DNA of 64,000 nucleotides from Halosegnis marinus. GTDB taxonomy: Archaea; Halobacteriota; Halobacteria; Halobacteriales; Haloarculaceae. Positions 2,407 to 28,230 of this stretch are shown piece after piece. Both the position numbers and the translations under genes were made by a program. Each line of letters starts with the position of its first letter. Position 1 is the first letter of the stretch. The stretch spans positions 930,001-994,000 of the forward strand of contig NZ_CP119802.1 of assembly GCF_029338355.1 (NCBI RefSeq), written 5' to 3'. A model generated the notes under the pieces. The model worked only from the letters and a program-made list of their open reading frames with translations, did no database searches and was not told the origin of the DNA.

Positions 2407-2546
2407 GATTCGACGCCCTTTTGCCCGCGAACGGGGAAGTGAGTCCAAGCACGTCGGCTCGCGGGCCCCGACGGGCACCTGCTACGGCAGGACGGGATGT
2501 GACACGGCGGCCGTGTTGAACCACGCAACGCCCGCGGAGACAACAA

Positions 2547-26053: not shown

Positions 26054-26247
26054 CCCCCGACCCGGACTTCGCGCTGTTCGTCGGCGGCTTCGTCGCCGCG
26101 CTGTTCGTCCTCGCGGCCGGCTTCCTCTACCTGCTCGGCGGGGGCGCGGGCGCGACCCTCGGGCTGGCGGGCGCGCTCGCGGCGCTCGGCGGCGTCTTCC
26201 TCGTTCTCGGCCTCGTCGGCGCCGGACTGCTCCGGCTGGCGGGGTGA
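26050..26247 (+). CDS. 65-aa two-TM membrane protein
   Basis: GTG 26050 overlaps the hydrolase stop as GTGA. The product begins MTPDPDFALF and has two hydrophobic helices (FVGGFVAALFVLAAGFLYLL and AGALAALGGVFLVLGLVGAG) separated by a Gly-rich turn. No family recognised; coupling implies coexpression with the hydrolase. Confidence 0.7.
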   Translation: MTPDPDFALFVGGFVAALFVLAAGFLYLLGGGAGATLGLAGALAALGGVFLVLGLVGAGLLRLAG

Positions 26248-26262
26248 CGCGCCGACCGACGG

Positions 26263-26270
26263 GTTCATCC
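26263..26270 (+). promoter_or_regulatory. TATA-like box for candidate ncRNA
   Basis: GTTCATCC is centred about 27 nt before A26294, the first base of the outer stem of the RNA candidate, the same spacing as at protein-coding promoters here. Confidence 0.5.
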
Positions 26271-26293
26271 GCGTGCGGGCGCTCGACTCGCGT

Positions 26294-26365
26294 ACAGTGA
26301 CCTAATACGCAGGTTTCAACTCCTGCGGGCCGGGTTCCTTCGACAGTTTCCCGGCCTATCACTGT
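26294..26365 (+). ncRNA. candidate three-way-junction structured RNA
   Basis: A 72-nt segment folds by simple pairing. Outer stem ACAGTGA (26294-26300) pairs with TCACTGT (26359-26365). Hairpin 1 is CGCAGG/CCTGCG (26308-26313, 26322-26327) with an 8-nt loop. Hairpin 2, directly abutting it, is GGCCGGG/CCCGGCC (26328-26334, 26350-26356) with a 15-nt loop. AACT in loop 1 can pair with AGTT in loop 2. A TATA-like box precedes it and a hairpin follows it. It is tRNA-sized but has no T-arm or anticodon arm. I recognise no known family. Confidence 0.6.
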
Positions 26366-26374
26366 GTTCTACAC

Positions 26375-26393
26375 CGCGAGCCGTGCGCTCGCG
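26375..26393. terminator. hairpin between ncRNA candidate and convergent gene
   Basis: CGCGAGC (26375-26381) and GCTCGCG (26387-26393) form a 7-bp stem with a 5-nt loop just before the stop of the minus-strand gene at 26397. It may end the RNA, the convergent mRNA, or both. No long T-tract follows. Confidence 0.35.
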
Positions 26394-26396
26394 CGT

Positions 26397-26672
26397 CTAC
26401 TCCCCGTCGAGCGCCGCGGCGAGCGTTTCGAGGTCCGCCTTGCGGAACGGCCGGGCCGCCGCCTCGGGGTCGTCCTCCAGCCCCGCGACGCGGCGACGGA
26501 TACCCGCGCGCATCTCCGCCTTGGGCGGGAGGGGCGCGCCGCCCGCGTCCCCGCCGACGGCGTCGAGGACGGCCGCGAGCGCCTCCTTCGTGAACGCGGT
26601 GGACTCGACGCGCTCGTAGCGCCCGACGGCGACGCGTATCTCGTTGCGGAGGTCGTCGACAGTGGGTGACAC
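26397..26672 (-). CDS. conserved haloarchaeal hypothetical protein
   Basis: A 91-residue acidic protein without membrane segments. Notable stretches are LRNEIRVAVGRYERVES, TAFTKEALAAVLDAVG, KAEMRAGIRRRVAG and a C-terminal FRKADLETLAAAL. The helical, repeated pattern of TKEAL/RKADL suggests two similar helical halves. It resembles haloarchaeal proteins of unknown function. GTG 26672 is the first start giving this compact protein; upstream reading becomes Arg/Ala-rich noise. It runs towards the ncRNA candidate, ending 31 bases after its outer stem. Confidence 0.65.
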   Translation of the reverse strand: MSPTVDDLRNEIRVAVGRYERVESTAFTKEALAAVLDAVGGDAGGAPLPPKAEMRAGIRRRVAGLEDDPEAAARPFRKADLETLAAALDGE

Positions 26673-27640: not shown

Positions 27641-27791
27641 TTCGTGAGCGGCGGTGCTGCGGTCTGGGAGCAGTGGGCGTGTTTCGTGAGAGAGCGGCGA
27701 GAGCGAGCGACCGACTCCGCCGAAATCGGGTCGAATCGGTGCCCTACATGCCGGAACTGATTGGTCGCAAAACGGGCGGTAGAAGGACGAG
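27641..27791. other. non-coding spacer before the tandem repeat
   Basis: About 150 bases between the secreted-protein stop and the first 74-bp repeat. I see no gene, hairpin or promoter that I can support. Confidence 0.5.
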
Positions 27792-28161
27792 CCCGACGGG
27801 AGCGAGCGGAGCCGGAGGCTCCGCGAGCTACGGCGGGCGAGTGACGAGCGAAGCGAGGAAGCGAGCCCGACGGGAGCGAGCGGAGCCGGAGGCTCCGCGA
27901 GCTACGGCGGGCGAGTGACGAGCGAAGCGAGGAAGCGAGCCCGACGGGAGCGAGCGGAGCCGGAGGCTCCGCGAGCTACGGCGGGCGAGTGACGAGCGAA
28001 GCGAGGAAGCGAGCCCGACGGGAGCGAGCGGAGCCGGAGGCTCCGCGAGCTACGGCGGGCGAGTGACGAGCGAAGCGAGGAAGCGAGCCCGACGGGAGCG
28101 AGCGGAGCCGGAGGCTCCGCGAGCTACGGCGGGCGAGTGACGAGCGAAGCGAGGAAGCGAG
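27792..28161. repeat. five exact 74-bp tandem repeats at the 3' end of tRNA-Arg
   Basis: Units begin at 27792, 27866, 27940, 28014 and 28088; a sixth start at 28162 runs into the tRNA gene. All copies read as identical. Each contains an 8-bp-stem hairpin (27806-27824 in copy 1, GCGGAGCC-GGA-GGCTCCGC). Each also repeats the last 14 bases of the tRNA gene plus flanking bases, and on the minus strand CCGTAGCTC, a match to the tRNA's 5' region. 74 is not a multiple of three, so reading frames shift from copy to copy and it is not coding. No spacers, hence not CRISPR. Confidence 0.9.
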
Positions 28162-28230
28162 CCCGACGGGATTTGAACCCGCGGCATCCTGGTCCGGAAC
28201 CAGGTACTCTGTCCACTGAGCTACGGGCCC
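28158..28230 (-). tRNA. tRNA-Arg (anticodon CCG)
   Basis: 73 nt on the minus strand. The acceptor stem GGGCCCG pairs with CGGGCTC with one G-U pair. The D-arm contains TAGCTCAGTGGACAGAGT, the anticodon arm is CCTGG-TTCCGGA-CCAGG (anticodon CCG, reads CGG), and the T-arm is GCGGG-TTCAAAT-CCCGT. Discriminator G; CCA not encoded. Its 3' end is duplicated in the adjoining tandem repeats. Confidence 0.97.

Follow-up and report, generated by a model that had tools for sequence, protein, structure and literature searches.

A candidate small RNA with a predicted kissing-loop fold shared by two haloarchaeal genera

The intergenic unit described here is probably a genuine, though rare, RNA gene without a match among the known RNA families, since a second genus keeps its promoter spacing, its shape and its loops while many letters of its stems have changed in pairs. 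Judging from the sequence comparison, we consider that it would be a small RNA that is rare, has its own transcription and belongs to a new family; it would be encoded on the + strand and act in trans via its rigid conserved loops. We put the probability of this reading at roughly 0.7. An earlier, sequence-only reading of the same DNA had claimed a novel structured RNA, and that claim now has the backing of a homologue that shows compensatory changes and keeps the loops and the promoter spacing, and of the lack of an Rfam match.

Results

The window, that is, the whole 64,000-nt stretch of DNA that was analysed, covers contig positions 930001-994000 of a haloarchaeal chromosome and has a GC content of 72%. 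The candidate RNA sits between a + strand ORF for a small membrane protein, which ends at 26247, and a convergent gene of 91 aa. In window coordinates, the features are:

26255-26273, + strand: promoter-like element ACCGACGGGTTCATCCGCG at the BRE/TATA position; Halorarius litoreus has the same base at 18 of the 19 positions
26291-26369, + strand: structured RNA core of 79 nt, a three-way junction (fold z-scores of both copies, pair changes, column shuffle)
26293-26300/26359-26366, + strand: outer stem P1, 8 bp including a terminal U-G (MFE)
26302-26307, + strand: unpaired junction segment CTAATA, part of CTAATAC, the final C of which pairs in P2; invariant between the genera
26308-26327, + strand: hairpin P2, 6 bp (stem 26308-26313/26322-26327), 8-nt loop TTTCAACT (MFE, alignment)
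26328-26356, + strand: hairpin P3, 7 bp (stem 26328-26334/26350-26356), 15-nt loop TTCCTTCGACAGTTT (MFE, alignment)
26318-26321 with 26345-26348, + strand: loop-loop contact of AACT with AGTT, 4 bp (compensatory change in Halorarius)
26375-26393, + strand: trailing hairpin, 7 bp (stem 26375-26381/26387-26393), loop CGTGC (counterpart in Halorarius)
26397-26672, - strand: 91-aa haloarchaeal gene, function unassigned, convergent with the RNA and adjoining it in both carriers

P2 directly adjoins P3, with 0 nt between the hairpins. All the stems that had been claimed are present, although the outer stem, given earlier as 7 bp (26294-26300/26359-26365), has 8 bp by MFE. The window copy folds with a z-score of -3.9. 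Since 1 of 150 random 111-nt stretches from the window folds as well (~0.7%), the fold of this single sequence is only suggestive and no proof. As to the earlier claim that such a structure is hard to explain by chance, the fold of one copy suggests it, and the comparison of the two genera is convincing.

The homologue was found in another genus, in Halorarius litoreus BND22, just past the 3' end of the same 91-aa gene, when the stretch following this gene was read in 30 relatives; the same Halorarius sequence was recovered by a pattern scan across the genome collection. A BLAST search of the family with the DNA of the RNA gave only short chance matches and missed this copy. Similarity between the two carriers starts at ACCGACGGGTTCATnCGCG and extends through the core into the trailing hairpin, and the DNA upstream of the promoter-like element shows no likeness between them. 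On its own, the Halorarius copy folds into the same shape (z -5.3, or -4.6 with the trailing hairpin). The 79-nt cores differ at 18 positions (~77% identical), and the single-stranded parts CUAAUAC, UUUCAA and UUCnUUCGACAnUUU are nearly invariant.

Thirteen of the 18 differences fall in paired columns, and ten of these make up five pairs that have changed on both sides: two in P1, one in P2 (G-C to U-G in Halorarius), one in P3 (G-C to U-A) and one in the loop-loop contact. P1 has in addition one pair changed from C-G to U-G; its terminal U-G is lost in Halorarius, where an additional inner U-G takes its place. The contact, proposed earlier from the window alone, gains support from its C-G pair in the window becoming U-A in Halorarius, with the remaining three pairs the same. 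Elsewhere the P3 loop TTCnTTCGACAnTTT is invariant between the genera, as is the portion TTTCAA of the P2 loop. The trailing hairpin carries one further double-sided change, the sixth overall.

Only 1 of 50 pair cells is broken (98% standard pairs), as against 27-48% pairing in a control in which the partners were slid by 1-3 columns. The column-shuffled consensus fold of the two sequences has a z-score of -8.2, and under a null model in which equally many changes fall at random on the paired columns, one broken pair or fewer has P = 0.002. In a partner-shuffle control, 34 of 500 shuffles matched the observed covariation, a result that is not decisive at n=2; since only two sequences exist, the covariation lies beyond statistical testing of the R-scape type. 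A covariance model and a search for compensatory changes had been suggested as the check on the fold, and the outcome, five double-sided changes in the core with 98% of cells paired, is favourable.

Promoter-like letters, GGGTTCAT at 26261-26268, lie ~27 nt ahead of the outer stem. The distance from TTCAT to CTAATAC is exactly 38 nt in both genera, and this constancy fits a promoter with a fixed start ~27 nt downstream. In the published haloarchaeal motifs, TATA reads TTWT and BRE reads CGAAA (PMC4983044). Since the present element matches these weakly and would be a poor TATA box alone, the argument for a promoter is one of conservation and spacing. The idea of an own promoter draws on a conserved element at identical spacing in the second genus, but the TATA box itself is weak. 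No U-run follows the trailing hairpin in either species, and the earlier view of this hairpin as a terminator in the usual sense thus lacks support; no terminator-like site was found. It is possible that it marks the 3' end or is a stability element.

The + strand is favoured by the G-U pairs and by the side on which the promoter-like element lies. Over the two sequences, one pair is broken on the + strand versus three on the - strand, and the consensus energies are -32.0 and -22.9 kcal/mol, respectively. The 79-nt core has stops in five of six frames; the single open frame, on the + strand, has 3 synonymous versus 9 non-synonymous changed codons, and in the window it lacks a start codon. None of the frames fits a protein and the RNA is non-coding, so that the earlier statement that the region has no ORF was right in effect: a frame does run open across the RNA, with no start codon and with mostly non-synonymous changes.

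Searches with the covariance model placed the RNA in 2 of 146 family genomes. No copy was detected in the other five genomes of the window's genus or in the second genome of the Halorarius genus, an odd absence from congeners since the sequence is so strictly conserved. Only chance matches came from the order and class samples, which overlap heavily and in which strict filters may lose diverged copies, and from two further haloarchaeal families. An unfiltered model search beyond the 91-aa gene in its remaining hits revealed nothing convincing. Weak model matches of 20-23 bits in other genomes were rejected, as they look like coding sequence or pieces of tRNA; hairpin 1 is similar to T-arms, and this accounts for some of the weak matches. 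There was no similar DNA in the plasmid and phage collections beyond chance pieces, viral contigs gave one chance fragment, and the window's genome has a single copy. From this narrow distribution it follows that the RNA is rare, having been either widely lost or horizontally moved.

The 91-aa gene has homologues in 94 of the 146 family genomes, and a Pfam search with its protein gave no match. It is the only neighbour common to both carriers: upstream of the RNA there is a MATE-like transporter gene in Halorarius versus a hydrolase and the membrane ORF in the window. Common synteny was rejected as the reason for the co-location, since the carriers and their relatives have different genes around the 91-aa gene.

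Other features of the same genome were recorded in passing. A 74-bp tandem repeat (5.2 perfect copies, window 27788-28171) runs into the end of a tRNA-Arg(CCG) gene (28157-28230, - strand), and the perfection of the repeat suggests recent amplification or an assembly feature. In the Rfam scan, window positions 2478-2527 (+ strand) matched the eL15-Euryarchaeota ribosomal protein leader. Contig 2 of the genome (78805-79620 and 89962-90777) carries a CRISPR array, whose repeat is GTTACAGACGCACCGTAGAGGGGTTGAAGC, as well as a type I-B Cas7 gene; a search for Cas1 in this genome found none.

Discussion

We infer that a promoter, weak yet conserved, would start transcription most likely near 26292 and give an RNA product of ~75-105 nt. 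In the three-way junction, the two adjacent hairpins would be held side by side through the 4-bp loop-loop contact, and the short trailing hairpin may serve to define the 3' end or to shield it. Since RNAs that present a binding surface typically combine invariant loops with variable stems, the nearly invariant single-stranded parts may be the working surface, which would most probably bind a partner RNA or a protein in trans; action in trans is compatible with the data. If expressed, the RNA would be small and defined with a nearly invariant loop surface, which should allow its partner to be recovered in a pull-down. Since the RNA is so scarce among relatives, one may ask how a sequence this strictly conserved comes to be gained or lost. 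A bolder view, which we offer tentatively and regard as rather doubtful, is that it represents a new class of compact RNAs in archaea, in which a three-way junction complete in itself and locked through kissing loops, with its own transcription, would serve as a trans-acting sensor or protein-binding scaffold unrelated to catalogued families.

An antisense effect on the convergent gene had been put forward earlier beside a trans-acting role. Here the transcript would enter or pair with the 3' end of the 91-aa mRNA and so regulate this gene in cis, a possibility raised by the convergent arrangement in both carriers and by the window hairpin, which ends 3 nt from the complement of the stop codon. 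We consider it unlikely, since the Halorarius unit stops ~75 nt short of the 91-aa gene. The conserved parts are, furthermore, folded stems and loops outside that gene, and nearly all of the genomes that have the gene are without the RNA.

It is likewise improbable that the structure belongs to the - strand as a 3' untranslated element of the 91-aa mRNA, for example one for stability or termination. The location past the stop codon in both genomes would suit such an element and the minus strand of the window folds well too, but that of Halorarius loses the outer stem; pairing and energy favour the + strand, and the conserved element resembling a promoter is found upstream on the + side.

We also give little credence to the view that the RNA belongs to a mobile element or its remnant, spread horizontally and selected for the benefit of the element. 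The very patchy occurrence, in two genera but not in their other sampled species, would agree with this, as would a core that is more alike over its 79 nt than the neighbouring 91-aa proteins of the two carriers (64% identical). Against it are the negative plasmid and phage collections, with the viral contigs giving only the one chance fragment, the single copy in the window's genome and the same gene neighbour in both carriers.

It is very improbable that the unit is an orphan riboswitch or the cis-leader of a + strand gene located downstream. A three-way junction with kissing loops does resemble some riboswitches, but the next + strand gene in the window starts ~420 nt away, past the opposed 91-aa gene, and it encodes a protein unrelated to the AI-2E-type transporter found at this position in Halorarius. 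As remarked earlier, the unit is not upstream of a same-strand gene, and a cis switch is unlikely for that reason; with the next + strand genes distant and unrelated between the species, membership of the cis-regulatory riboswitches was rejected.

A CRISPR-derived or CreTA-like RNA, in which the core is likened to a repeat on the minus strand (GTCGAA...TTGAAAC), is largely refuted and exceedingly improbable: half of the Halorarius core looks like the CRISPR-DR54 repeat (RF01367), with a weak full-length match of 18.6 bits (gathering 39; E 0.09), and an array and a Cas7 gene are present on the second contig of the window's genome, but the match is below threshold and is not shared by the window copy, Halorarius has no match to Cas1 or type I-B Cas7 (the two Cas types searched), the host genome's own repeat differs from the RNA core, and the conserved fold extends across the repeat-like limits.

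The preferred reading, a trans-acting small RNA of a new family, can be set against the catalogued RNAs. With Rfam 15 there was no match at the gathering threshold, permissive searches gave only sub-threshold ones, and neither ARAGORN nor the Rfam tRNA model reported a tRNA at the RNA site. Like the archaeal H/ACA and C/D guide RNAs, the candidate would be a small stable archaeal RNA with hairpins. An H/ACA guide was rejected on the alignment, which by eye has no conserved ACA or kink-turn, and on the negative Rfam result; unlike the C/D guides, the candidate has no C and D boxes by eye and no Rfam match. A role as a modification guide is disfavoured.

Purine-type riboswitches have a closing stem, two side-by-side hairpins, a loop-loop contact and conserved junction letters. 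The candidate shares with them, in the sense of working alike only, the closing stem, the paired hairpins with their loop-loop contact and the conserved junction. It differs in having no Rfam match, 0 nt between its hairpins, a 15-nt second loop and no same-strand gene downstream. To our knowledge, evolutionary support for the structure exists for few small RNAs of haloarchaea, and for fewer still does a compensatory change support a tertiary contact.

Haloarchaeal intergenic sRNAs are numerous and have been mapped by dRNA-seq (PMC4983044); sRNA132, likewise intergenic, occurs only in Haloferax (PMC6560208). The candidate resembles such RNAs in being a short independent intergenic unit with a putative promoter of its own and a narrow phylogenetic range. 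It is set apart from them, by description rather than by sequence comparison, in being compact with nearly invariant loops, features that point more to a rigid surface for binding than to a tail for pairing. In kind, the candidate stands among the haloarchaeal intergenic small RNAs, but its compact kissing-loop junction is distinct and is matched by no catalogued family.
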